A DNA stretch of 48,479 nt from Candidatus Paceibacterota bacterium (GTDB taxonomy: Bacteria > Patescibacteriota > Minisyncoccia > Phycocordibacterales > JAQTLZ01), in contig JAQTLZ010000002.1 of assembly GCA_028714635.1 (NCBI GenBank), positions 73,362-121,840 of the forward strand. Reading direction: 5' to 3'. Below are positions 8,980-47,492 of the stretch, piece by piece. Both the position numbers and the translations under genes were made by a program. A model generated the notes under the pieces. That model saw only the letters and a program-made list of their open reading frames with translations, made no database searches and was not told the origin of the DNA. How positions within the stretch are numbered: the stretch's first letter is position 1; each line of letters begins with the position of its first letter.

Positions 8980-10257
8980 TTAGTTCAGTACTTTCACAAG
9001 TTCTTCTCGCACTACAGTCGCATCATCCCAAGGAGTTTTCTGCCCATTCGCTTCCATAATATAAGGATCAGTTCCTTTGCCGGTGATGATGACCACCTCA
9101 CCTTTACGAGCATCTTTGAGTGCTGAATGTATAGCTTCTCGCCGGTCCATAATGATCCTCGGATGATGTTTTATCATTCCCTTTGCCATCTCCTTAACGA
9201 TCCCTTCGGGATCTTCGTCGTACGGATCTTCATTGGTGAGAATGATTTGAGAGCAATAGGTATCAGCTATTTTCCCCATCTCTGGCCGTTTCCATTTATC
9301 TCTTCCTCCTCCGGTATTGCCGAGGACGCAGATTTTTTCGGATGCGCCGAATGTTTGATACACTTTTTCCAAAGAATCCGCAGTGTGGGCGTAATCTACG
9401 ATCACCGTGAAGTCCTGTATTTTTTTCGTCTTCACATCTCCTGGCAAAGTTACTCTTTCCATTCGGCCTCGCACCAGCGTCACTTTCTCAAGAGCTTTTT
9501 TTATCACGGGAGTCTCAATGGCTTGGCTTTTTGCAAATGTAGCGACGCCGAGCATATTGTAGATATTGAAAAGTCCGGGAAGAGGGGAGGAAATTCTTAC
9601 TCCATTGAAACCAAATTCAATTCCTGCTCCACCAAGCGTGTGCGAACCTGCGTCTTTCAGCGAGTATGGGTATTTTCGAGGAATATTCAGCGAGAGAAAT
9701 TTTTCTGATTCGGCACTATCCTTATTTACGATAATCGCTCGATTTTTTTTCTCGGAATGTTCAAGCGCGTGAGCGATAGAGAGTTTTGCTTCAACATATT
9801 TTTCATACGAACCGTGGGATTCAATATGTTCTGGAGAGATGTTGGTAACAATGAGCGCGTCGAGGTCAATATATTTGTGACGAAATTGTTTTGCTCCTTC
9901 AGAAGTCATTTCAATCACAGCCCAATCGCAGCCTGCATTTACAGCATCGTGCAAAAATTTCTGGGTGAAAAATCGCCCGGGCATTGTCATTTTGTAAAGA
10001 TTTCGCTTTGTATCTCCTCCGATTTTGAACTGAAGCGTGCCCATTGAGGCAACTTTAAACCCCGCTTCCTCAAGTACTCTTGCAGTGAGCTCTGTAGTTG
10101 TCGTCTTTCCCTTTGTTCCAGTAATTCCAACTACTTTGATCTTTCGAGAAGGGAAGCGATAGAGAATCGCCCCAAGAAGAGCGATTTTGTAGTGATATAT
10201 CGGCTGGAGCTTTTTAAATATGCTCTGCGGAATAATTTTTCGTAAAAAAGAAATCAT
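8980..10257 (-). CDS. murE: MurE-type UDP-MurNAc-peptide ligase
   Basis: This Mur ligase adds the third stem-peptide residue to UDP-MurNAc-dipeptide using ATP. The 425-residue protein has the ATP loop GITGTKGKTTTTEL, the central motif IEMTSEG, VTNISPEHIESHGSYE, VDYAHTADSLE and GNTGGGRDKWKRPEMG. The third-residue selection motif reads TNEDPYDEDP, not the DNPR of classic meso-diaminopimelate enzymes, so the amino acid added is uncertain. The start codon follows the ruvA stop directly (TAAATG), showing translation coupling on the minus strand. Confidence 0.88.
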   Translation of the reverse strand: MISFLRKIIPQSIFKKLQPIYHYKIALLGAILYRFPSRKIKVVGITGTKGKTTTTELTARVLEEAGFKVASMGTLQFKIGGDTKRNLYKMTMPGRFFTQKFLHDAVNAGCDWAVIEMTSEGAKQFRHKYIDLDALIVTNISPEHIESHGSYEKYVEAKLSIAHALEHSEKKNRAIIVNKDSAESEKFLSLNIPRKYPYSLKDAGSHTLGGAGIEFGFNGVRISSPLPGLFNIYNMLGVATFAKSQAIETPVIKKALEKVTLVRGRMERVTLPGDVKTKKIQDFTVIVDYAHTADSLEKVYQTFGASEKICVLGNTGGGRDKWKRPEMGKIADTYCSQIILTNEDPYDEDPEGIVKEMAKGMIKHHPRIIMDRREAIHSALKDARKGEVVIITGKGTDPYIMEANGQKTPWDDATVVREELVKVLN

Positions 10258-10839
10258 TTATGAGTGCATTGCTAAAATTTTTAAAGCGTGTTTCACTTTT
10301 TCCGAGGTGTTTTCGATTTTCTTATCAATTTTCTTGAGCGCCTCGCGAGCTTCCCGTTCAGGATACCCGAGAGACTTCAAAGCTTCAAGCACGTCAGAGG
10401 CGCCGCGGAAATCAGTTTTTTCGCTTTCTTCGACAAGGCCGATCTTGTCGCGAAGTTCCAAAATAATTTTGTCGGCATTTTTCCGTCCGATTCCTCCCAT
10501 TTTAGTGAGAAGCGACGAATCTCCGGAGGCAATTGCTTGGCGAAGCGTAGATACTGTGGCGCCGGAAAGAATTCCCATTGCAGTTTTTGGACCGATGCCA
10601 GAGATAGAGATTAAAAGTCCGAAAAAATTCAAGCCTTCTTCATCGAGAAAGCCGTACAGGTCGAGCGCGTCTTCTCTGACAGCTAAATGAGTGAAAAATC
10701 TCACTGGTTCAGACCCCATTTTCTTCACTTTTTCAAAGGTATCACCGGAAATGAATATCTTGTAACCCACGCCATGTACGTCCAAAACCACCTTTTTCAG
10801 GTCTTTAGAGACGATTTTGCCTGTGAGTTCAGAGATCAT
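10258..10839 (-). CDS. ruvA: Holliday junction DNA helicase subunit RuvA
   Basis: RuvA binds four-way junctions as a tetramer and loads the RuvB motor. The 193-residue protein has the N-terminal OB fold (MISELTGKIVSKDLKKVVLDV), helix-hairpin-helix regions (LLISISGIGPKTAMGILSG and KMGGIGRKNADKIILELRD), and a C-terminal RuvB-binding helix bundle (SDVLEALKSLGYPEREAREA). It is first in a two-gene minus-strand unit with murE, an odd pairing in function. Confidence 0.95.
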   Translation of the reverse strand: MISELTGKIVSKDLKKVVLDVHGVGYKIFISGDTFEKVKKMGSEPVRFFTHLAVREDALDLYGFLDEEGLNFFGLLISISGIGPKTAMGILSGATVSTLRQAIASGDSSLLTKMGGIGRKNADKIILELRDKIGLVEESEKTDFRGASDVLEALKSLGYPEREAREALKKIDKKIENTSEKVKHALKILAMHS

Positions 10840-10962
10840 AGTGGGTAGCGTATAGCTTATAGCGTATAGCGTTTAGGGTAAAAACGCAAAGAAATTTGCT
10901 TTTATTCGCTGCTTTTGCTATCTTTTCTGGACGCTCGACGCTAAACGCTCGACGCTACCCAT
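10840..10962. promoter_or_regulatory. Divergent ruvA/rpsT promoter region with mirrored TAGCG repeats
   Basis: Both edges carry degenerate TAGCG-type repeats: TAGCGTATAGC units at 10843-10875 and GACGCT/AACGCT units at 10931-10957. The outermost GGGTAGCGT and ACGCTACCC form an inverted pair. Tandem units of this sort resemble the AGCTA repeats at 859 and 24935. The two start codons face away from each other, so both promoters must lie here. Confidence 0.5.
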
Positions 10963-11229
10963 ATGGCAATTACGACATCTGCAAAAAAGGCTATCCGAGT
11001 TTCCGACAGGAAGCGAGTTTTCAATATTCGCCGAAAGCGGGTGATGGAAGATCTTATCAAAGAGATCCGAATTATGGCTCAAAAGAAAGATAAAAAAGGA
11101 TTTGAGACAATGCTTCCACAGACTTTTCAGGCGATCGACAAAGCGGCAAAAACCAAATATATCAAGAAAAATACTGCTGCGAGATACAAGTCACGACTCT
11201 CAGCGCTTCTCACAAAAATTTCAGCTTAA
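10963..11229 (+). CDS. rpsT: 30S ribosomal protein S20
   Basis: S20 is a primary 16S rRNA-binding protein of the small subunit. The 88-residue basic helical protein has the family start MAITTSAKKAIRVSDRKRVFN. It ends with the usual AAKTKYIKKNTAARYKSRL region. Length matches the family. It is a single-gene unit with a terminator directly after the stop. Confidence 0.95.
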   Translation: MAITTSAKKAIRVSDRKRVFNIRRKRVMEDLIKEIRIMAQKKDKKGFETMLPQTFQAIDKAAKTKYIKKNTAARYKSRLSALLTKISA

Positions 11230-11252
11230 AAAACACCCGAGAGGGTGTTTTT
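11228..11252 (+). terminator. Intrinsic terminator of rpsT
   Basis: A stem AAAACACCC / GGGTGTTTT with loop GAGA overlaps the rpsT stop codon and ends in a T run. Confidence 0.85.
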
Positions 11253-11261
11253 GTTTTTAGA

Positions 11262-12161
11262 TCAAGTCAAAAGATATTTCAACAAAGCCATTCTAATCAG
11301 GAGTCCATAATGGACTTGTTTGAAGTACATTGCTTTTGGAGAAGCATCTACTTCTGTAGCGATCGTATGTACTCGCGGCAGGGGATCCATAATGATCGCT
11401 TCTTTTTTCATTTGAGTAACTAGATGCATATCAACCCGATAAAAATCTCGAAGTCTCAAATATTCTTTTTGATTTTTGAATCGTTCTTTTTGAATTCGTG
11501 TCTGGTATAAAACATCAATAGAGCTGATTATGGATTTTGTATTTTCCATTTCTTCAAAAACAACTTTATGCTTTTTTAAATATGTCTTGATTTCATTATT
11601 TATCTGAAGGGATTTCGGCGAGACAAAATATATTTTTATGTTTTTGTATTTCCCTAAAAGATATGAGAGTGATCTTATGGTTCTGCTGTTTTTTAAGTCA
11701 CCAACCAAAGCAATTCGAATCCCATCAATTTTTCCAAGTTCTTTTTTAATCGTGTAAAGATCTAGTAAAGCTTGGGTGGGATGTTGTCCGGGCCCGTCGC
11801 CTGCGTTTATGAGTGGTATTTTCGACACGGAAGCAGCTCTTTTTGCTGCACCTGCTTCATAATGTCTCATTACGATAACATCAGCATAATTATTTATAAC
11901 TTTGATCGAATCTTCCAGAATTTCTCCCTTTGAAGCGGAAGAAAATTCTCTGGCATTTTCCGTGCTAATTACGCTTCCTCCGAGCCGTAGCATCGCCGAT
12001 TCAAAAGAAAACCGAGTTCTGGTACTCGGTTCATAAAACAGTGAAGCTAATATTTTGCCCCGTAGCGGGGTATCGGTTTTCTTTTTTAATCTATCTGCAA
12101 TGGAGAAAATTCTTTCGATGAATTTTGTATCAAATTCTTCGGATCCTACGATGTGATGCAT
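11262..12161 (-). CDS. pyrB: Aspartate carbamoyltransferase catalytic subunit
   Basis: This enzyme joins carbamoyl phosphate and aspartate in pyrimidine synthesis. The 299-residue protein has the carbamoyl-phosphate loop (FYEPSTRTRFSFESAMLRLG), the 80s-loop region, HPTQALLDLYT, VGDLKNSRTIRSL and DPLPRV. Length is usual for PyrB. No pyrI, carA/B, pyrC or pyrD is nearby, so it is a lone pathway gene here. A TACAAT box ends 9 nt before the ATG. The next gene upstream carries its own terminator between the two. Confidence 0.93.
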   Translation of the reverse strand: MHHIVGSEEFDTKFIERIFSIADRLKKKTDTPLRGKILASLFYEPSTRTRFSFESAMLRLGGSVISTENAREFSSASKGEILEDSIKVINNYADVIVMRHYEAGAAKRAASVSKIPLINAGDGPGQHPTQALLDLYTIKKELGKIDGIRIALVGDLKNSRTIRSLSYLLGKYKNIKIYFVSPKSLQINNEIKTYLKKHKVVFEEMENTKSIISSIDVLYQTRIQKERFKNQKEYLRLRDFYRVDMHLVTQMKKEAIIMDPLPRVHTIATEVDASPKAMYFKQVHYGLLIRMALLKYLLT

Positions 12162-38558: not shown

Positions 38559-38641
38559 GCACGGGTGGCGAAATTGGTAGACGCACTACCTTGAGGTGGT
38601 AGCGCCGTAAAGGCATGGAGGTTCAAGTCCTCTCCCGTGCA
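38559..38641 (+). tRNA. tRNA-Leu (anticodon GAG), integration target
   Basis: The acceptor stem GCACGGG / CCCGTGC, the anticodon stem CTACC / GGTAG with loop TTGAGGT, a long variable arm and the T arm GGAGG-TTCAAGT-CCTCT are clear. Discriminator A; CCA is not encoded. The last three bases form the first part of the attL core. The recombinase reading frame on the other strand ends inside the gene. Confidence 0.96.
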
Positions 38642-40182
38642 CAGCAAGAGACATCGGCAAATTCGGCAAAAACAAAATCGTATCGCTTCGCGATATGTGA
38701 GGCATCGGAAATCCGTCCGGCCTTTAGACAATGGGCAAAATCCCAGAGGTCTCCCCAGCGTATGGAAACCATTTTGTCCTTGATTTCCGGGTTAGAGCCG
38801 ATTTTCTGAAAAAACTTCTTCCATTCCAAATGTGAGGAAGTTTTTTCAATTTCGGCGGCCTCTTTCAAGGACAAAATGAAACTCCGCAAAGGTTCGACCC
38901 AATTCTTTCTCTGTTGCCCAAAATCTTTCAAACTTTCCTCAAGCTTGAGCTTTTGGCGCATCAAAACATCTTTTCGTTCGAGATATACCGCTTTTTCAAT
39001 ATCTCCATCGAGGTATATCGAGACCAGCCGATCAAGCTTGATTTGAGTTTCGGAAAGTTTGTCTTTCAGATTTTGGGCAATATCTCCTCTCGCGGAAATT
39101 GATTCCTTTCCCCAAGCAGTAACCTGCTTTTCCGCTTCTTGAATTTCCGCGAGAGGAAACGACACTGATTGAAGCAGTGATTGAATTTGTGCGGCGAGTG
39201 ATCCTTCCTGCACGTACGGCTGTGCGCACTTTCCGTTCTTTTTGGTACAGCGATAATATCCATACTTCACGCCGTAGCGGTTGGTGGAATATTGAGCCGT
39301 GATCGCACAGCCACACTCGCCACACTTCAGAAATCCAGTGAAAGCAAACGGAAGAAGCTGTTTTTGCTTCCTCGGCTTCTTCCGTTTGTTGAACACCTTT
39401 TGCACTGCTTCAAACAGGGTCGGAGAAAGAATTGGCTCAAAGTTTCCGTTGTGCCATTCACCGCGATGTTTGATGAATCCGAGATAGGCGCGGTTGCCGA
39501 GCATTTTCACAACGGAAACTTTGGCAAGTGGCGTTCCTTTTTTCTGTACAACATCATGTTCCGCCAAAAAATCCGCCAATGTGAGAAGCGTATGGGTTCC
39601 CGTGGCGTATTCCTCGAACGCTCGCTTGATGACGCGGGATTTCACCGGATCAGGCTCGATATTGTGTGTTTTGTAATTATTCACATAGCCCATTGGAGCG
39701 AGCGTGAGCCATTCGCCACGCCGGATTTTTTGGCGGATTCCACGCTTCACATTCTCGACAAGGTTGTCAGAAAAATATTTGGATTGTCCGAACGCCACTT
39801 GCAACATAAATTTGCCTTGCGGAGTCGGCTCAAACCAAAACTGCGGAAAGCGTAAAGAGGCAATTCTGTTGATATCGACTAAGTAAATAATTTTTCCGCC
39901 ATCAACAGAATTACGGGCGAGACGGTCAGGATGCCATGCCAAAATGCCAAGCGGTACTTTGCTTGTCTCTATATACGCGAGCATTTTGGCAAACTCTTCT
40001 CGCCCGGGCGTCTTTGCGCTTTTCGCCTCCGTGAATACTTTCACGATTTCAATGCGTTCTCTGCTCGCAAACTCTCGCAATTCAAAAAGCTGTGCCTCAA
40101 TCGACATCACTTGCTTGTCATCTTCCTCGGTGCTCTTGCGAGCATAGAGAACGCATTGAGTTTTGGTTTGTGCAGTTTCCAT
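38623..40182 (-). CDS. Large serine recombinase (integrase) with ends in inverted repeats
   Basis: The enzyme should integrate and excise the element using an active Ser. The 519-residue protein has a resolvase domain (LYARKSTEEDDKQVMSIEAQ with Ser17, and AWHPDRLARNSVDGGKI), the recombinase domain, a zinc ribbon (CGECGC...CTKKNGKC) and a coiled coil (SETQIKLDRLVSIYLDGDIE). The ATG at 40182 lies in the right copy of repeat a; an in-frame upstream start at 40341 would read across the internal attP-like site. The last 48 or so codons are in the left copy of repeat a, and the stop codon lies in tRNA-Leu, so the tail changes when the element excises. Confidence 0.9.
   Translation of the reverse strand: METAQTKTQCVLYARKSTEEDDKQVMSIEAQLFELREFASRERIEIVKVFTEAKSAKTPGREEFAKMLAYIETSKVPLGILAWHPDRLARNSVDGGKIIYLVDINRIASLRFPQFWFEPTPQGKFMLQVAFGQSKYFSDNLVENVKRGIRQKIRRGEWLTLAPMGYVNNYKTHNIEPDPVKSRVIKRAFEEYATGTHTLLTLADFLAEHDVVQKKGTPLAKVSVVKMLGNRAYLGFIKHRGEWHNGNFEPILSPTLFEAVQKVFNKRKKPRKQKQLLPFAFTGFLKCGECGCAITAQYSTNRYGVKYGYYRCTKKNGKCAQPYVQEGSLAAQIQSLLQSVSFPLAEIQEAEKQVTAWGKESISARGDIAQNLKDKLSETQIKLDRLVSIYLDGDIEKAVYLERKDVLMRQKLKLEESLKDFGQQRKNWVEPLRSFILSLKEAAEIEKTSSHLEWKKFFQKIGSNPEIKDKMVSIRWGDLWDFAHCLKAGRISDASHIAKRYDFVFAEFADVSCCARERT
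38639..38643. other. attL core
   Basis: GCACA spans the last three bases of tRNA-Leu plus two. Left of it is tRNA sequence; right of it is AGCAAGAG..., which also appears on the arm of the internal attP-like site. It is the hybrid expected of attL. Confidence 0.8.
38639..38769 (+). repeat. Inverted repeat a, left copy (131 bp)
   Basis: These 131 bases are the exact reverse complement of 40175-40305 as read by eye. The copy starts with the GCACA core and ends with TATGGAAAC. It holds the 3' end of the recombinase frame. Confidence 0.92.
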
Positions 40183-40305
40183 ACGCTGGGGAGACCTCTG
40201 GGATTTTGCCCATTGTCTAAAGGCCGGACGGATTTCCGATGCCTCACATATCGCGAAGCGATACGATTTTGTTTTTGCCGAATTTGCCGATGTCTCTTGC
40301 TGTGC
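40175..40305 (-). repeat. Inverted repeat a, right copy (131 bp)
   Basis: The exact inverted copy of 38639-38769. It contains the recombinase ATG and the bases before it, and ends at the TGTGC core. Confidence 0.92.
40301..40305. other. Internal attP-like core, inverted
   Basis: TGTGC (GCACA on the minus strand) is flanked on one side by repeat a and on the other by repeat b, the exact combination expected of attP. It faces the opposite way from attL and attR. Confidence 0.75.
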
Positions 40306-40518
40306 TGTTTTAATTGCGTTTGCTCGAACTTTCTTCGACAAACTCCGCTAATGCGTACGCGCCGAGCCCGTATCAACTCCAACGCTAATCCTACGCTCGA
40401 CTAACTCGTCCCGTCCCGCGCGGAGTACCGCGCGGTCGCACCCCGCCTCGCCACGAGCTCCTCCATACAAGATTTGTTTCGCGCGGATTTCTTTTTTCGG
40501 AATGGAGTGGCGGGCGGG
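40301..40518 (+). repeat. Inverted repeat b, left copy (218 bp)
   Basis: The exact reverse complement of 47077-47294 as read by eye, from the core to the sequence GGCGGGCGGG. It is GC-rich and holds a strong hairpin CCGCGCGG-AGTA-CCGCGCGG at 40416-40435. Confidence 0.92.
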
Positions 40519-40533
40519 GGCGGATTTATACCT

Positions 40534-40583
40534 ATTACATTATACTATAATATTGGTGTATAATGTAATCATCGGGGTATAAT
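40534..40583 (+). promoter_or_regulatory. Operator and promoter of the C-R-M operon
   Basis: A perfect 11-bp inverted repeat ATTACATTATA / TATAATGTAAT (40534-40544 and 40559-40569) lies directly upstream of a TATAAT box (40578-40583) that ends 8 nt before the controller ATG. This arrangement suits binding by the controller protein. Confidence 0.7.
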
Positions 40584-40591
40584 ATGTGGAT

Positions 40592-40798
40592 ATGAAAAGT
40601 GAGTCCGCAAAGTTAGGTAAAAACCTAAAGCGTATCCGTACAGGAAAAGGTATAACACAGGGCGATATTGTTAGAACTCTTGGCGTCAGCCGAAGCTTTG
40701 TCAGTAATATTGAGAATGGAAAGACAAATCCAACACTCTCGACAATTACAAAGTTAGCGAAGGCGGTTGGAGTTTCATCTGATGAATTGATAAAATAG
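40592..40798 (+). CDS. Small HTH controller (C) protein of the restriction system
   Basis: The 68-residue protein is one XRE-type helix-turn-helix: NLKRIRTGKGITQGDIVRTL then GVSRSFVSNIENGKTNPTLS. Its size and its place just before the endonuclease gene match C proteins, which delay endonuclease expression on entry to a new host. The operator lies upstream. ATG 40592 is used; a GTG at 40586 is in frame. Six nt separate it from the endonuclease gene. Confidence 0.8.
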   Translation: MKSESAKLGKNLKRIRTGKGITQGDIVRTLGVSRSFVSNIENGKTNPTLSTITKLAKAVGVSSDELIK

Positions 40799-40803
40799 AT
40801 TAT

Positions 40804-42048
40804 ATGCTCCCTAAAGACATCCAAGATATAATCGACGGTTCTGCTCCAATTTCGATAGATTCTGAAAAAGCAGAATTAGCTAGAAAACTTGTAGAAGAGG
40901 CGTATAAAATGCCCCAAAAGGAAATCGGTTTATCATTAGCTGCAGCTTTTGATTTATTGGTATCCGCTGAATATTATGGCCGCGTCACTAACAGAGGCTG
41001 GATTTATTGTCCTCATAATGGAAATCCGCTGTTACTTTTTTCGTATACTAATATATGTCCGCGCTGCAATCTTGCAGGCAAATTTAAGTATCACAAATCA
41101 AACAAACCAAGTTCAGGAAGTATTGGCGCCATTGCTGTTGATCTTCTAGGTCTTATGCTAAAAATTTTGTTTGAGAAACATGGAAGAAAAATTGAAATTT
41201 TCAAAGCTGCAGAGCCTGCAGACTTGATTTTTTACGAGAAGGAAAAACATATTGTGCTTTTTGCCGAAGTTAAATCTTCTCCTTTGGTAACCATGCCTTT
41301 AGCAACAAATACTGAAAAACAAACAGAAGAGAGTGGGGATCAAGAAGTTGAATCGGGACATCTCACTTTGAATAACACTAATCTTTCTTCAAACAAGCTC
41401 GGGATTTTTTTACCGTTGATTGAGAAAAAGGGGGAACGAGGTGAATCATATAAAATATTTGATATTGGCATAATGAACCAGAAATCAAAAAAAGATTGGG
41501 TATATAAAGGGATAAACGACCTACTCAAAACAGACTTCTTCAAATATTATCATTCGTTCTGGTTACATGCTTTTAAAACATATGAGGCAAGAGGGCGACT
41601 GTCAGTTGGGGCTATTGATCCTATTTATTGGATGACAAATGCTTGTGGGCAGCCGTGGCCAAGACCAGAAAACTGGCCCCAGCGCCGTGTGGGTGCCAGC
41701 GGTTACGAATCTATTTCCGATAGTAAATCTAGTGTAGGCATGGATAGAACAGATGACATTAAAAAAGGAACATACCAGGTTCTGAAACTTGGTGCTACAA
41801 ATAAACCAAAAATTGATGGAATAAATATCAAGACTGGACTTCTATCCAATCTTCACGCGATCAGACATTTTGAGGAATATCTGCAAGACTTAAAAGATGT
41901 TGTGTGGACAAAAGATCAAACAGGTAAAGCAAAGCGTGTGAAAGATTTACCACCCAATGAGCCACTTTATAATCTCTATGATGGTATTGTCTCCTTCTCA
42001 TCTACTTATGCAAGAGACGAGTGGGTTAAAGAAAATTTCTCGTTCTGA
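40804..42048 (+). CDS. Type II restriction endonuclease, PD-(D/E)XK-like
   Basis: The 414-residue protein has a zinc-like cluster (Cys69, His71, Cys85, Cys88: YCPHNG and ICPRC), then a nuclease core PADLIFYEKEKHIVLFAEVK with Asp140, Glu155 and Lys157. The C-terminal part is long (over 200 residues) and includes ACGQPWPRPENWPQRRVG. No recognition sequence can be read. It is between the controller and methyltransferase genes. The class is inferred from motif and context. Confidence 0.78.
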   Translation: MLPKDIQDIIDGSAPISIDSEKAELARKLVEEAYKMPQKEIGLSLAAAFDLLVSAEYYGRVTNRGWIYCPHNGNPLLLFSYTNICPRCNLAGKFKYHKSNKPSSGSIGAIAVDLLGLMLKILFEKHGRKIEIFKAAEPADLIFYEKEKHIVLFAEVKSSPLVTMPLATNTEKQTEESGDQEVESGHLTLNNTNLSSNKLGIFLPLIEKKGERGESYKIFDIGIMNQKSKKDWVYKGINDLLKTDFFKYYHSFWLHAFKTYEARGRLSVGAIDPIYWMTNACGQPWPRPENWPQRRVGASGYESISDSKSSVGMDRTDDIKKGTYQVLKLGATNKPKIDGINIKTGLLSNLHAIRHFEEYLQDLKDVVWTKDQTGKAKRVKDLPPNEPLYNLYDGIVSFSSTYARDEWVKENFSF

Positions 42049-42052
42049 TTTC

Positions 42053-43135
42053 ATGCAAACCTTAATTAATAATCACATAGCTCGTAAAGTTGGACCGGAT
42101 TCGCAGAAGCGGATTAATGCTTTAGGTATTGGCCAGAGAATGCAGGATTTACCTGAAGAATTGTGGCATGAGAGTTTTAAATATTATGTGAAGCATGATG
42201 AAAACAGAGTTGGTGGACCAAATTTGAGAATTATCAGGCTTGATCCTCAAAAACCGTCTCTAACTGTTACGGGTTTCATTTTTAACAAATTTGTACATCC
42301 TTTCGAGAATCGCTATATCACAGTCAGAGAAGCACTGCGCTTACAGGGTTTTCCAGATGATCTTGAATTGAAGGGAACACTTACAAGTACTCAGCAACAA
42401 GTTGGGAATGCTGTTCCTGTCCCTTTAGCAAAAGCCGTATTTGAACAGATTGTGAAGCAAGGGTTGAAGGCTAGCGGGAAAAAAATAATGACTGCTTTTA
42501 GTTTGTTCTCTGGTATCGGAGGCTTAGACATAGGTGCGGAATTAACAAAAAAGATTACGACCCAGGTTGCTTTGGATAAGTGGAAAGATGCGTGTAATAC
42601 ACTAGAAAGTTACCCGAAAAATAGAGCAAAAGTAATATGTGAGGACATCACAAAAGTCACTGATCCTCTTAAATTTTGGAAAGAACACTCGGGAGTAAAA
42701 GAACGTCCGGATATTATTCACGGGGGACCACCCTGTCAATCTTTTAGTCAAGCGGGAAAACAAAAAGGACTTGAGGATGATAGAGGATTGTTGATTTTTG
42801 AATTTTTGCGATTTGTCGAAAAAATAAAGCCATCGTTCTTCGTGATGGAAAATGTATCTAATTTAAAGGGAGTTGGTGGTGGAAAGTTGTATAGACAAAT
42901 TTTAAAGAGAGCTGAAACTGCTGGATATTCCGTTACAACTGATATTTTGCTCGCGGCCAATTATGGAGCTCCACAAATGAGGCGAAGAATACTTTTTATT
43001 GGTTCTCGAAAAGGATACCCGAAAATACAGATGCCAGTGCCAACTCACGAACGGGAAGGGTCTCTTTTTGGTGGGCAGGCCTACGTTTCTGTCGACGAAG
43101 CATTTAAGGGCTTACCGACTACTCAACAAGGTTAG
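42053..43135 (+). CDS. Circularly permuted cytosine-5 DNA methyltransferase
   Basis: The enzyme should methylate cytosine in the site cut by the upstream endonuclease. Motif order is permuted in the 360-residue protein. Recognition-domain sequence and motif IX (IIRLDPQKPSLTVTGF), YITVREALRLQGFPDDLE and motif X (QQQVGNAVPVPLAKAV, near residue 118) come first. Then motif I (FSLFSGIGGLDIGAEL), motif IV (GGPPCQSFSQAG, Cys228), motif VI (MENVSNL, Glu266) and motif VIII (QMRRRILFIG) follow. It ends with VSVDEAFKGLPTTQQG, normally just before the recognition domain. ATG 42053 is 4 nt after the endonuclease stop; a start at 42008 is possible. Confidence 0.88.
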   Translation: MQTLINNHIARKVGPDSQKRINALGIGQRMQDLPEELWHESFKYYVKHDENRVGGPNLRIIRLDPQKPSLTVTGFIFNKFVHPFENRYITVREALRLQGFPDDLELKGTLTSTQQQVGNAVPVPLAKAVFEQIVKQGLKASGKKIMTAFSLFSGIGGLDIGAELTKKITTQVALDKWKDACNTLESYPKNRAKVICEDITKVTDPLKFWKEHSGVKERPDIIHGGPPCQSFSQAGKQKGLEDDRGLLIFEFLRFVEKIKPSFFVMENVSNLKGVGGGKLYRQILKRAETAGYSVTTDILLAANYGAPQMRRRILFIGSRKGYPKIQMPVPTHEREGSLFGGQAYVSVDEAFKGLPTTQQG

Positions 43136-43626
43136 AAATGAAGATTTAGGTTCATCAGTCTAAATTTCATCGCTTCTTCACTAACTTGATATTTTTCTGC
43201 TAATTCAGACAGTTCATCTTCCGTGAACCCGTCTTTTGAGAGAATACGGAAGTCTTTCTCAAGTAAACTTCGAGGCATAAGTAACGAGGTGGCAAACATA
43301 TTAGCTTGCTTCTCAATAGGTGTTCGCATTACATCTTTTTTATTGTCTCTAAAATCGACAAAGGTGTCTTTTCTTGGGTGTAGAGAAAAATGACCTAATT
43401 CGTGAGCAATTGAAAATCTTTGTCTCACAGGGGCCTCATTACTGTTTATTCCGATCAGTGCTCGGCCATCTTTGCGAATTAACATGCCAGAAAAGTCGCC
43501 ACTAGGAGCACGACTAATCTTAATTTGAAGCTTGTTAGCTATTTCTTCTACCGGAATAGGTAAAATCTTCAAATTTAATTTATTTAAAATTTCTTCTGCG
43601 CAAAATTCTATTTTTTCTAAAATCAT
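43132..43626 (-). CDS. ImmA/IrrE-type metallopeptidase
   Basis: The 164-residue protein has the zinc motif IAHELGHFSLH (His75, Glu76, His79) and EKQANMFATSLLMP downstream. ImmA proteases cleave a partner repressor to derepress a mobile element. It overlaps the upstream XRE gene by 4 nt and its stop overlaps the methyltransferase stop. The pair fits the control of excision or of the cargo. Confidence 0.9.
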   Translation of the reverse strand: MILEKIEFCAEEILNKLNLKILPIPVEEIANKLQIKISRAPSGDFSGMLIRKDGRALIGINSNEAPVRQRFSIAHELGHFSLHPRKDTFVDFRDNKKDVMRTPIEKQANMFATSLLMPRSLLEKDFRILSKDGFTEDELSELAEKYQVSEEAMKFRLMNLNLHF

Positions 43627-43985
43627 ACTTTTTTCTCTTTACCAAAAAGTGTTTTTGCCCAATCTGCTGCTTTTTTACCACTTTCCTGTTCTACCTTATG
43701 GAGATCAACTCTTGTAATCCCATATCCATCGGGAACAGTTGGAAAGAAATCATGAACATCACAATTGAAGAGAGTCGCGAGTTTCCATAAAACGACCGCA
43801 GATACATTATTCCTCCCGTTTTCAATATGAGTAATGGCTTCTCGGGAGATTTTCAACTCTTGCGCAATGCGCAAGGCACTCTGCCCAAGTTTGTTGCGCA
43901 TCTCTTTTATTTTTCTACCGATCTCTTTCTTAACTTCAATCTCGGTAGCGCCTCTGTCATTTATTATATCTTTTTTCTTCTTCAT
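43623..43985 (-). CDS. XRE-family repressor, partner of ImmA
   Basis: The 120-residue protein has an XRE helix-turn-helix (GQSALRIAQELKISREAITH, then IENGRNNVSAVVLWKLATLF) and a C-terminal tail. It probably represses promoters in the 43986-44172 gap and is cut by ImmA. Two 11-bp direct repeats and a 15-bp palindrome lie just outside its start. Confidence 0.85.
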   Translation of the reverse strand: MKKKKDIINDRGATEIEVKKEIGRKIKEMRNKLGQSALRIAQELKISREAITHIENGRNNVSAVVLWKLATLFNCDVHDFFPTVPDGYGITRVDLHKVEQESGKKAADWAKTLFGKEKKV

Positions 43986-44172
43986 CCTAAAGATGGGTTG
44001 TGAGTAACTCGGTATACTGTATACCCGATGGTATTGCCGGTAACATTAATGGTCTTGTGAGTAACATCTGTTCCATCTAGTTACCTTGTAATGGTATCAC
44101 CAGAGGTATAATATATCAAACAGCAGAGGCCAGGGCTGCAAAAATTAATTTTAAAACTGGCAGAATAATATC
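43986..44172. promoter_or_regulatory. Divergent control region with palindrome and direct repeats
   Basis: TTGTGAGTAAC occurs twice (43998-44008 and 44055-44065) and GGTATACTGTATACC is a perfect palindrome (44011-44025). GGTAAC and GTTACC form another inverted pair further on. TATAAT (44108-44113) serves the Ubl operon, with a leader of about 55 nt. These are candidate sites for the XRE protein. Confidence 0.65.
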
Positions 44173-44439
44173 ATGGATAAAGACAACAGTGAACATAAGG
44201 AAAAGGAGGTAAAGATAATCGTTAATACCCGAGAGAAAGTTTGGAATAAAAAGGAAATCTCATACGAGGAGGTCGTCGTATTGGCTTTCGGCTCTCATTC
44301 TCAGGACGAGAATGTTGTTTATACAGTTACCTTCTCAAAGGGGCCAGACGGACACCGCGAGGGCTCTCTCGTGAAGGGAGAGAGTGTGAAGGTTAAGGAT
44401 GGAATGATCTTCAATGTCACACAAACTAATAAGTCATAG
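44173..44439 (+). CDS. Ubiquitin-like protein (multiubiquitin-domain family)
   Basis: The 88-residue protein is a single Ubl domain: VKIIVNTREKVWNKKEISYE, EVVVLAFGSHSQDENVVYTV, then [20 protein letters not shown]. It matches the Multi_ubiq pattern with one repeat. It ends TQTNKS with no terminal glycine pair, so how it would be activated is not clear. It overlaps the E1-like gene by 26 nt. I expect it to be the modifier of the cassette, attached to targets during defence or another response; that role is inferred. Confidence 0.8.
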   Translation: MDKDNSEHKEKEVKIIVNTREKVWNKKEISYEEVVVLAFGSHSQDENVVYTVTFSKGPDGHREGSLVKGESVKVKDGMIFNVTQTNKS

Positions 44440-45592
44440 CCCCGACCTCAAGAAGTTGCGTGACGAAGGATACGAAATTGAAGTAAAGCAGGCGCACCTA
44501 CTCGTACACAATATTCCCTATGTAAACGCCGAGAAAGAAATTGCTTTAGGGATACTTATATCTCCCCTTGGCGATTTAGCGGGTGATCGAACCGCAAGGC
44601 CGCAAGACCACGTAATTTATTTTACAGGCGGCCATCCGTGCGACAAGGAAGGAAATATCATAAAGGGAATCGTGCACTCAAGCGGTCGTAAGACTCTCGC
44701 AGATGGAATAGAAACAGATCACTCATTCTCTAACAAACCAGCAGAGGGCTATCCCGACTACTACGAAAAAGTGACGACCTATATCAAAATAATTTCTTCA
44801 CAGGCAGAATCCATTGATCGTTCTGCTACAGCAAAAACTTTCAAAGTCGTCGAATCAAACGATCCTGAAATTGTCTTTAACTACTTAGATGCAAATTCAA
44901 GTCGAGCTCAAATTGGAGTTATTTCTGAAAAACTTCAGAATTTGAAAATTGCTATCATTGGCTTAGGAGGCACTGGCTCCTATGTGTTGGATTTTGTTGC
45001 AAAAACACCCGTAAAAGAAATTCATCTCTTTGATCAAGACGACTTTCATTCTCATAATGCCTTTCGTGCTCCTGGCGCTGCTTCGCTCGATACGTTACGA
45101 GAAAGCCCTAAAAAAGTTGCCTACCTTCATGGCATATATTCACGAATGCGGAAAGATATTATTCCCCATGAATATCATCTCACCTCGTCAACACTAGAAG
45201 AATTGTCAAAGATGAGCTTTGTTTTTATCTGCATCGATGAAGGAGAAATCAAAAAATTAATAATTCAGAAACTGATAGGGGTCGGTATTCCTTTTGTGGA
45301 CACGGGAATAGGAGTCAACGCGTTGGATGGAATGTTAACAGGAAGTGTGAGGGTAACAACTTGTACTCAAGAGAAAAAGGATCATGTCGACAAAAGGATT
45401 TCTTTTGCTGATAATGGTAATAACGACTACGACAAGAACGTACAGATAGCAGAGATCAATGCTCTAAATGCTGCCCTTGCCGTCATAAAATGGAAAAAGT
45501 TATTTGGTTTCTATCACGATCTTGGTAAGGAGTGTCATGCGATTTATGAAATTAATACAAATCAATTAGTAAATGACGAAGCTATCTCATAA
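44414..45592 (+). CDS. E1-like ThiF adenylyltransferase with N-terminal DUF6791-like domain
   Basis: The 392-residue protein has an N-terminal domain of about 160 residues containing [15 protein letters not shown] (Cys76), which I match to DUF6791 and suspect is E2-like. The E1 core follows: [18 protein letters not shown] (ATP loop, 180-197), [20 protein letters not shown] (Asp and Arg for ATP) and [12 protein letters not shown]. Then come [11 protein letters not shown] (Cys317) and [20 protein letters not shown] at the end. It would adenylate the Ubl C-terminus. Cys76 and Cys317 are thioester candidates. The E2-like suggestion is untested. Confidence 0.85.
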
Positions 45593-45953
45593 ATTCGTAA
45601 AAAATATTCCCGACAATCCCGAGAATGGAGTATTGTATGTTTCTATCGATTATTCAACAGCCATTCATAAATGTTTTTGTGGATGCGGCAACGAGGTAGT
45701 CACTCCTCTTTCTCCAACAGACTGGAAGCTGACATTTAACGGCGAGACGATCTCTCTGTACCCTTCGATAGGAAACTGGAACTTCCCCTGTCAATCGCAT
45801 TACTGGATTAGAAATAACGAAATCGAATGGGCACCTAAATGGTCAAAGGAACAAGTTGAAGATGGCAGAGAGGAAGACGGGAAAAACAAGGAAATTTATT
45901 ATGGAAAGAAGAAAAAGAAGAGCCCTTTGTTCGAGTTCTTTTTTCGGAAGTAA
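45573..45953 (+). CDS. DUF6527-like zinc-binding protein of the Ubl cassette
   Basis: The 126-residue protein has [17 protein letters not shown] (Cys34, Cys36, Cys38) and [17 protein letters not shown] (Cys73, His76), a likely zinc site. It ends in a Lys-rich tail. I recall DUF6527 beside ThiF/DUF6791 genes; its role is unknown, with a ligase-like adapter or Ubl processing both possible. It overlaps the E1-like gene by 20 nt, which marks a tight three-gene operon. Confidence 0.75.
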
Positions 45954-45967
45954 ATACTACTAACCCC

Positions 45968-46496
45968 ATGCCCCCAGACGACACAACAACTCTTCCCGAC
46001 ACCGCTGCACCAGATTCTGTAATTCCACCTGCATCTGAGCCTGAAACGCCAGTTTCGGGCGATTCCCCACAAACCCCAGAAACCACCCCTCCCGAAGAAT
46101 CAAGCCCCCAAGCACCCCCTGAGGCCCTAGAAGCCCCTAGGGGCGATGGTAATTTAGGAGCGGTCATGGAACACAGCTCCTAAAACCGAGCCTCCTCCTC
46201 AAGAACCCCAAAAAGAGCCCGAATCCCCAGTCGCGTCAGCGACGGTTCCCGCACCCAATTTCCTCCGCGATTTGCTTCTGCGAGCGCGAGCTCGCATACA
46301 GGAGCGAAAAGGAAAGAAGTTAAATAAAATTCTCGACGAACTCACAAAGAAAGGGAAAATCTCCAACGACCAAGTACAAAAGCTCCTGTATGTCTCGGAT
46401 GCGACAGCGACGAGATATCTTTCCGCGCTAGAGAGCCAAGGAAAGATAAAACAGTTTGGAAGAACGGGAAAATATACTTTCTATACAAAAATTTAA
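45968..46496 (+). pseudogene. Pro-rich HTH protein split by a frameshift
   Basis: The first frame (45968-46183) gives a Pro/Glu/Thr-rich segment ending in GNLGAVMEHSS and a stop. The +1 frame is open from 46158. It continues the Pro-rich composition (TEPPPQEPQKEPESP) and leads into LLLRARARIQERKGKKLNKI and a winged HTH (VSDATATRYLSALESQGKIK). Together they match a common CPR layout of Pro-rich N-terminus plus HTH. The shift lies in or near a hairpin AGGAGC...GCTCCT (46156-46181), so it could be a mutation, a sequencing error or programmed shifting. Confidence 0.65.
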
Positions 46497-46893
46497 CGGC
46501 TCACATACACCAAGTGAGCCGTTGAGTCTTCACGGGAGCCCGCCGTCTCCTCCTCTCTTTGAGACGGCGGGAATTTGTGCGCGCACGGGTGGGAAAGGCG
46601 CGTGCGTACTCGCACGCGCTGGGGCAAGCACATGCAGTCAGCGTCTCGGGCTTCCCTCGGGCATTTTCCGCGACGGGCTTTTTACAATAATGAGCGCCGA
46701 CCCGAACGAAGTTACAGAATTTTGGCAGCGAAAGCGACACCACTACACACAGAGATGAAAACGAGCAAGGGGGTTGTGCGAGGGTGTGAAAACAACCCGA
46801 CGCTGGGGGGAGGATTCCTTCCTCCCCCCAAATGGACGCGGGTAATTTTTTCTGTAACGGCTCATTTGGTGTATTTGAGCCGTTACAGAAAAA
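46495..46893 (+). ncRNA. Hairpin-rich non-coding tract bounded by mirrored hairpins
   Basis: No convincing gene lies here. Five strong hairpins occur: 46495-46523, 46539-46571 (11-bp stem), 46598-46619 (9-bp stem), 46805-46829 (10-bp stem) and 46847-46893 (18-bp stem). The first and last share AACGGCTCA...TGAGCCGTT stems and the same nine-base loop, in opposite orientation. It could be a structured RNA or a replication or transfer site. The type is an inference. Confidence 0.4.
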
Positions 46894-47076
46894 TACTTGC
46901 CCGCTCCTAGGCATCTAGGCGCGAGTAGCCCTAGCGGAAATGCCCGAGGCGAATGCCGAGGGTAATACCAACGAACAATTACCACGGAAAGAAAGATATG
47001 CTAAAGTAAAGCCCGAGATTCCTTTTGCATCCGCATTCGAGTTCCGTCCTTCTCCTCTTCAAAGGAGAAGACGCAT
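46894..47076. other. Gap between hairpin tract and repeat b
   Basis: I see no gene in this 183-base stretch. It has only short A/T-rich and Pro-coding-like sequence with weak pairings such as CTCCTCTT / AAGGAG near 47052-47069. Confidence 0.4.
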
Positions 47077-47294
47077 CCCGCCCGCCACTCCATTCCGAAA
47101 AAAGAAATCCGCGCGAAACAAATCTTGTATGGAGGAGCTCGTGGCGAGGCGGGGTGCGACCGCGCGGTACTCCGCGCGGGACGGGACGAGTTAGTCGAGC
47201 GTAGGATTAGCGTTGGAGTTGATACGGGCTCGGCGCGTACGCATTAGCGGAGTTTGTCGAAGAAAGTTCGAGCAAACGCAATTAAAACAGCACA
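47077..47294 (-). repeat. Inverted repeat b, right copy (218 bp)
   Basis: The exact inverted copy of 40301-40518, ending at the attR core GCACA (47290-47294). Confidence 0.92.
47290..47294. other. attR core
   Basis: GCACA is flanked on the left by repeat b and on the right by AATAAAACCGCG, the sequence that would follow tRNA-Leu in the empty site. Confidence 0.8.
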
Positions 47295-47445
47295 ATAAAA
47301 CCGCGAAAGCGGTTTTTTTAGTGCACGGAGTGAAGCGCGGGGCGCTTCACGGGAGAGGACTTGAAGCCCGATTGAGCATTTTTCTTCGTCCGTGAGGGCG
47401 TAAGAAAAATCCAATCGGGATACTGGTCGTGTAACGACCAAGATT
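47295..47445 (+). ncRNA. Multi-hairpin tRNA-trailing element, copy 2 (tRNA-Leu)
   Basis: Read after the attR core: an A-tract/CCGCGAAAGCGG/T-tract hairpin, an inverted copy of the tRNA-Leu 3' end split by a hairpin (GTGAAGCGC / GCGCTTCAC), GGGAGAGGACTTGAA, and the stem CCCGATTG / CAATCGGG (47367-47374 with 47412-47419) with the AGC/C internal loop. TACTG, a GGTCGT-GTA-ACGACC hairpin and GATTCC follow. In the empty site it would lie directly downstream of tRNA-Leu, as copy 1 does after tRNA-Lys. Confidence 0.55.
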
Positions 47446-47492
47446 CCTCGAATCTTTTCCGCACCCTCTTTCCATGCTAAAATACCACCATC

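Follow-up and report, generated by a model that had tools for sequence, protein, structure and literature searches.

Several described systems come close to the arrangement reported here. The yeast 2-micron plasmid carries two 599-bp repeats with Flp sites (PMC6594588), and CTXphi has two inverted phage-type attachment sites (attPs), which act as a folded single strand recombined by XerCD (PMC3089051). Serine integrases recognize a zinc-ribbon motif that is 5 bp farther from the centre in attP than in the target site, attB (PMC3783163). The tyrosine integrase gene intS of KplE1 is autoregulated where the attachment region overlaps its promoter, an effect that is not seen in convergent layouts (PMC2951348). 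Here we describe an integrative element at positions 38639-47294 of a 48,479-nucleotide stretch (the window) of contig JAQTLZ010000002.1 (positions 73,362 to 121,840) from a Candidatus Paceibacterota bacterium, in which a large serine integrase gene (int) lies between the attachment arm at the target tRNA gene and an inverted second attachment site. Searches directed at this arrangement or at its host group turned up no published description of it in open-access papers; they covered neither subscription papers nor preprints. The reading we favour, to which we give an even chance, is that the element belongs to a large, previously undescribed clade of small integrative elements of Patescibacteria that target tRNA and transfer-messenger RNA (tmRNA) genes, are run by a large serine integrase, and hold the second, inverted attP at the int control region as a putative operator for the integrase (Int).

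A complete inverted attachment site inside the element

The features that define the element are as follows.

38559..38642, plus strand: tRNA-Leu(GAG), the target gene, which stays intact after integration (ARAGORN; Rfam RF00005)
38623..40182, minus strand: large serine integrase, 519 aa, with ATG at 40182, stop inside the tRNA gene, and Resolvase, Recombinase and Zn_ribbon_recom domains
38639..38643, plus strand: core GCACA of the left attachment site (attL), common in sequence to the right attachment site (attR) and the internal site
38639..38769, plus strand: repeat a copy 1, the P' arm at attL, coding on the minus strand for the last ~44 integrase codons
40175..40305, minus strand: repeat a copy 2, the P' arm of the internal inverted attP, reaching 8 nt into the integrase open reading frame
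40301..40305, minus strand: core of the internal inverted attP
40175..40518, minus strand: complete internal attP, inverted, 344 bp, between the integrase and XRE genes, assigned from the repeats and the family-wide attP-type motif spacing
40301..40518, minus strand: repeat b copy 2, the P arm of the internal attP
40586..40798, plus strand: XRE-family regulator, divergent from the integrase, in a place conserved in 38 loci
47077..47294, plus strand: repeat b copy 1, the P arm at attR
47290..47294, plus strand: attR core GCACA, by sequence
47298..47320, plus strand: terminator hairpin and T run, moved away from the tRNA by integration; a comparable hairpin stands beside the tRNA in the empty site of genome G031

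A repeat search of the window reproduced the two inverted pairs that the original prediction had read by eye, pair a (38639-38769 and 40175-40305, 131 nt) and pair b (40301-40518 and 47077-47294, 218 nt), each at 100% identity. Chance is no explanation for exact inverted repeats of this length. The GCACA core was likewise read at all three sites where it had been expected, namely at 38639-38643 in attL (the 3' end of tRNA-Leu), at 47290-47294 in attR and, inverted, at 40301-40305. From core to core the element measures 8,651 bp, and joining its ends creates a second b-core-a junction oriented opposite to the internal copy. The predicted circle would then hold two identical 344-bp inverted repeats between arms of 1,405 and 6,558 bp, as originally calculated. 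The integrase open reading frame runs into both copies of a, with its ATG 8 nt inside one copy and its final ~44 codons in the other, again as described.

In outline the integrated layout is tRNA/P'-int-(P'P inverted)-(xre)-cargo-P/flank. Since a complete inverted attP is already present inside the integrated form, the excised circle must hold two identical attPs in opposite orientation. That this is an integrative element is borne out, together with the repeats and cores, by an empty site in a genome of the same genus, G031, where the left flank (through tRNA-Leu(GAG)) and the right flank are 34 bp apart and a terminator hairpin follows directly after the tRNA within these 34 bp. Because this hairpin adjoins the tRNA in G031 while that of the window lies past attR, integration parted the tRNA from its terminator. 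No empty site was found in the window's own genome assembly.

The positions of a GTTC motif identify the two kinds of half-site. Its distance from the core is 18 nt in tRNA arms and 23-24 nt in the P arm of the internal attP; in 54 of 72 loci the attP spacing exceeds that of the tRNA half-site by 4-6 bp. By the attP/attB spacing rule of serine integrases, the internal site is, to judge from its sequence, a true attP. The GTTC motif of the tRNA half-site is the conserved T-arm. This would account for the varied targets used by relatives of the element: tRNA-Leu, Glu, Ala, Ile, Val, Gln, Lys, Gly, Ser, Arg, Pro, Tyr, Met, Trp, Phe, Cys and Thr, and also tmRNA. The tmRNA gene is the target, by sequence or ARAGORN, in L033, L129, L177 and L181. 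The core consists of the tRNA end (discriminator plus CC(A)) and varies with the target, and the core of the internal attP is the same as the target core in nearly all complete elements.

In L007, L008, L041 and L051 the sequence past attR is similar to a P' arm from a different member of the family, a pattern that we read as islands stacked at one tRNA.

The layout is a trait of one integrase clade

A genome scan with the window integrase gave 75 loci, nearly all from Patescibacteria bins, and self-comparison of these loci revealed the same inverted pairs again. Successive searches brought the collection to 166 distinct integrase loci, 108 of them with enough sequence on both sides of the integrase. 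In 97 of these 108 the integrase lies between inverted P' arms (the a pair), so the repeats that the original prediction proposed to seek beside other serine recombinases do recur; the element, which had been taken for a singular case, displays a clade-wide trait. Across all loci having it, the a pair has a median identity of 98.6% and a median length of 125 bp. The inverted P-arm (b) pair is also present in 41 loci, and attL, the inverted internal attP and attR are all readable in about 40 elements. The integrase was found at E<=1e-60 in 138 of 397 sampled genomes of the window's order (about a third) and at E<=1e-80 in 82 of 380 genomes sampled across the phylum.

The concern that the internal junction might be an assembly chimera takes its force from the short-read contigs, many of which end at this very point (in 52 of 128 the break is within 420 bp upstream of int). 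The same layout is nonetheless present in six complete elements within four single-contig genomes (G406, G535, G507 and G565), and many internal copies differ from their partners by 3-15%. We rejected this explanation: it is refuted for the family, and the probability we leave it is close to nil.

A viral origin was also rejected. IMG/VR yielded no relatives of the integrase, and the phage and plasmid relatives among the matches listed were all below 29% identity. One family member, L043 (MGRG01000014.1), comes from a bin labelled Deltaproteobacteria, which may reflect cross-phylum transfer or mis-binning. An extra repeat pair in L019 is unrelated and has no attachment-site features.

In a FastTree tree of 148 integrases, all 115 integrases with inverted repeats fall within one clade, alongside data-poor loci and a few in which no second copy was detected. 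Their nearest neighbours, L219 and L221, lack inverted repeats, as do more distant serine recombinases from the window's genome (L002, L004), from related genomes (L136, L137) and from phages and plasmids (L170-L174). Support is low (0.21) at the smallest clade containing all inverted-repeat integrases, and the nodes joining this clade to L219 and then to L221 have support of 0.94 and 0.98. Within the clade the second copy is kept across integrases down to about 42-48% identity, and losses are rare and scattered.

Two loci depart from the common form of the module. L025 encodes a mosaic integrase, its N-terminal half near L021 and its C-terminal half near L029/L034, and its arms are mismatched. 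In L065 (8313-11120) ~1.4 kb of extra sequence in the integrase module splits the integrase gene, and the repeats stay in place.

The two attP copies evolve in concert

Concerted evolution was assessed in 47 locus pairs whose integrase DNA is 85-98.5% identical. On average the arms are 95.8% identical within a locus versus 76.8% between loci, with int at 89.8%, and in 41 of the 47 pairs both within-locus arm values exceed both between-locus values. This pattern indicates that the two attP copies of each element evolve in concert, kept alike by recombination. A comparison of differences near the core with those far from it was discarded, being biased by the repeat ends.

Concerted evolution would also be expected if the second attP had arisen once and persisted without function through gene conversion alone, and some loci of the clade do lack a detectable second copy. 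We consider such a passive relic improbable in view of its retention in 97 of 108 loci and over the full span of integrase divergence, with only rare and scattered losses, and of its constant placement beside int and xre.

Integrase orientation and inversion

Inversion of the integrase module is visible in one comparison. In L027 and L028 (WY3 and WY5 bins, two assemblies) the module, 99.8% identical, stands in opposite orientations beside a chromosomal flank of which 6,347 bp are identical (100%). The crossover cannot be placed because the outer ~115 bp of the arms are identical, and either homologous recombination or integration through one or the other attP may account for the inversion.

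Orientation is strongly biased across the family. The 3' end of int faces the tRNA or tmRNA gene in 128 loci and the 5' end does so in seven (L010, L024, L028, L059, L063, L078 and L189). Wherever an XRE-type regulator gene was found near int (38 loci), it stands beside the internal attP and is divergent from int. Together, the orientation and the place of the regulator indicate that the usual state holds int, the internal site (attP2) and xre together. Contigs of flipped loci break at b, and those of all five flipped loci counted in the break survey end within 160 bp downstream of int.

These data bear on the main rival to an operator or second-attP role, in which orientation acts as a switch on the tRNA promoter. 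A flip of the int module, or integration through attP2, would couple int to tRNA transcription in an active and short-lived state, and the usual orientation, opposing the tRNA, would be quiet. The seven loci with int reading out of the tRNA fit this scheme, L027 and L028 would be both states of one locus, and a bias of 128:7 is compatible with a transient state. In the window, moreover, integration has moved the tRNA terminator to attR, and the P' arm contains no terminator. Across 33 elements, however, a terminator lies past attR in only seven and in the P' arm in five, and terminator displacement was accordingly rejected as a general feature. We regard such a switch as possible but unlikely.

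A related and equally tentative proposal is that int forms an invertible module between inverted attPs, its orientation picking either the attP/XRE control region or the host tRNA promoter, and that the chromosome keeps a live attP able to recombine with further tRNA genes. L015 would be a product of this kind. There, the integrase module (9798-11622) has tRNA-Leu(CAA) on one side and tRNA-Leu(GAG) on the opposite side, and this single case resembles what recombination between the internal attP and a second tRNA would yield. A candidate partner attR may be present in G401:C30.

The original prediction had likened the element to the 2-micron plasmid. In a replicating circle, inversion between the attPs could switch the mode of replication and amplify the element, and the circle geometry, the extension of the integrase gene into the repeats and the homogenised repeats all suit this idea. 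Yet no replication, partition or transfer genes were seen among the annotated window cargo or among the top families listed for 108 cargo proteins from the family, a survey that is not exhaustive; serine integrases recombine attP with attP inefficiently (PMC3783163); and orientation is far from 50:50. We judge a cycle of this sort very improbable. What stands of the prediction is the 2-micron-like geometry, here built on a large serine recombinase; a 2-micron-like life of flipping and amplification gains no support from the 128:7 orientation, the constant XRE placement or the cargo seen.

Even less probable is a single-stranded route, in which the inverted attPs would fold one strand into a duplex attP for integration. 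Folding of either strand of the circle would pair the two sites into a perfect 344-bp attP duplex, and CTXphi uses its two inverted attPs in this way (PMC3089051). Serine integrases, however, exchange both strands, so that a folded strand would give hairpin-capped chromosome ends, and the loops of 1.4 and 6.6 kb are far above the ~90 bp of CTXphi.

A putative operator for the integrase

An attP between int and its regulator stands where an Int operator would be expected, and an inverted copy cannot delete int; for these reasons we favour the operator and second-attP role. In the proposed scheme, the site at the 3' end of int (attP1) would be the original integration site and still the usual one. 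The second attP, set between int and the divergent XRE regulator, would let Int bind over its own control region and thus autoregulate, which the convergent tRNA-int layout would otherwise not allow. An attP copy in this role would have to follow the shifting specificity of Int, and recombination between the repeats would secure the match. Only in the inverted orientation would such recombination flip int, where a direct copy would delete it, and the flip leaves the gene intact because both of its ends lie in the repeat. Inversion, or integration through attP2, would then produce the rare alternative state with int reading out from the tRNA.

Several points weigh against an operator role. Just 19 of the 41 complete elements yielded an XRE gene, and a few loci inside the clade have no detectable second copy. 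An operator would need only ~50 bp, whereas the shared copy spans 200-500 bp. A -10-like box is enriched in the P arm (36% versus 10% in shuffled sequence) but is limited to some lineages.

A general attP-borne promoter was also considered as the reason for attP2. It was dropped because integration through attP1 never parts int from its promoter; the TATAAT-like box, moreover, is lineage-limited.

Genes carried by the window element

The window integrase has the domains PF00239, PF07508 and PF13408, and its PDB matches include the A118 and SPbeta integrases. The other genes of the element are the following.

40804..42048, plus strand: type II restriction endonuclease (PADLOC REase_II 1.9e-113)
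41957..43135, plus strand: cytosine-5 DNA methyltransferase with circular permutation (PF00145 split in two, the C-terminal motifs preceding the N-terminal ones)
43132..43626, minus strand: CapP-like ImmA/IrrE metallopeptidase (Peptidase_M78 1.2e-24; PADLOC capP 1.5e-36)
43623..43985, minus strand: helix-turn-helix regulator partnering the CapP-like peptidase
44173..44439, plus strand: multiubiquitin-like protein (PF14452)
44414..45592, plus strand: E1/ThiF-like protein with DUF6791 (PF20590, PF00899, NF004805)
45573..45953, plus strand: DUF6527 protein (PF20137)
46272..46496, plus strand: small winged-helix protein (HTH_24)

The cargo thus comprises a type II restriction-modification system, in which the permuted methyltransferase gene (41957-43135) overlaps the endonuclease gene, a CapP/CapH-like pair and a ubiquitin-like operon. 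At 43132-45953 the peptidase and helix-turn-helix genes are divergent from the multiubiquitin, E1/DUF6791 and DUF6527 operon, and together these genes are possibly a regulated ubiquitin-like defence module. The winged-helix protein at 46272-46496 is a possible directionality factor. Cargo varies across other elements and includes restriction-modification, reverse transcriptase, MADS-like and metabolic genes.

Beyond attR, 47329-47447 is a ~110-bp palindromic sequence that represents a dispersed small repeat, with many matches at 70-96% identity in the window's genome and two congeners, some of them near tRNAs.

Mobile islands of this class are common in Patescibacteria, have restriction and reverse-transcriptase genes among their cargo, and were probably missed until now because the paired attPs interrupt short-read assemblies. 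As a natural serine-integrase family with a conserved tRNA T-arm in the target half-site, they should be useful for studies of target choice, and they pose the question of why a second, inverted attP has been retained for so long.

Comparison with known systems

The window family shares with other elements of large serine integrases (A118-, SPbeta- and phiC31-type phages, serine-recombinase integrative mobilizable elements and staphylococcal cassette chromosome elements) the Resolvase-Recombinase-zinc-ribbon integrase, attachment sites attL, attR and attB with a short common core, and an attP motif farther out than that of attB. Where those elements usually have a single attP that is split by integration, the window family keeps a complete inverted attP in the chromosome. 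It differs further in its target half-site, the T-arm of many tRNAs and of tmRNA, and in attP copies that evolve in concert.

The circle predicted for the family would match the 2-micron plasmid in its pair of long inverted repeats, each with a recombinase site inside, and in a recombinase gene beside or running into the repeat. Flp, however, is a tyrosine recombinase, whereas the window family uses a serine recombinase and is integrative, with a strong orientation bias (128:7). Inversion was seen once in the family (L027/L028). CTXphi is similar in having two oppositely oriented attP sites, but it relies on the host XerCD, has no integrase of its own and holds its sites ~90 bp apart, while the window element has its own serine integrase, sites 1.4 kb apart and no phage genes seen.

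Serine invertase switches (Hin, Gin, PinQ) likewise carry an invertible segment between inverted recombination sites. Their invertases are small, unlike the large integrase of the window family, which has C-terminal domains and would normally join attP to attB, and the segment that inverts in this family is the integrase gene. The likeness to autoregulated integrases of the KplE1 type (PMC2951348) would lie in an attachment region over the integrase promoter, which would permit self-repression by Int. There the overlap comes from attL itself and the integrase is a tyrosine recombinase, whereas in the window family it is the extra inverted attP that would supply the overlap.

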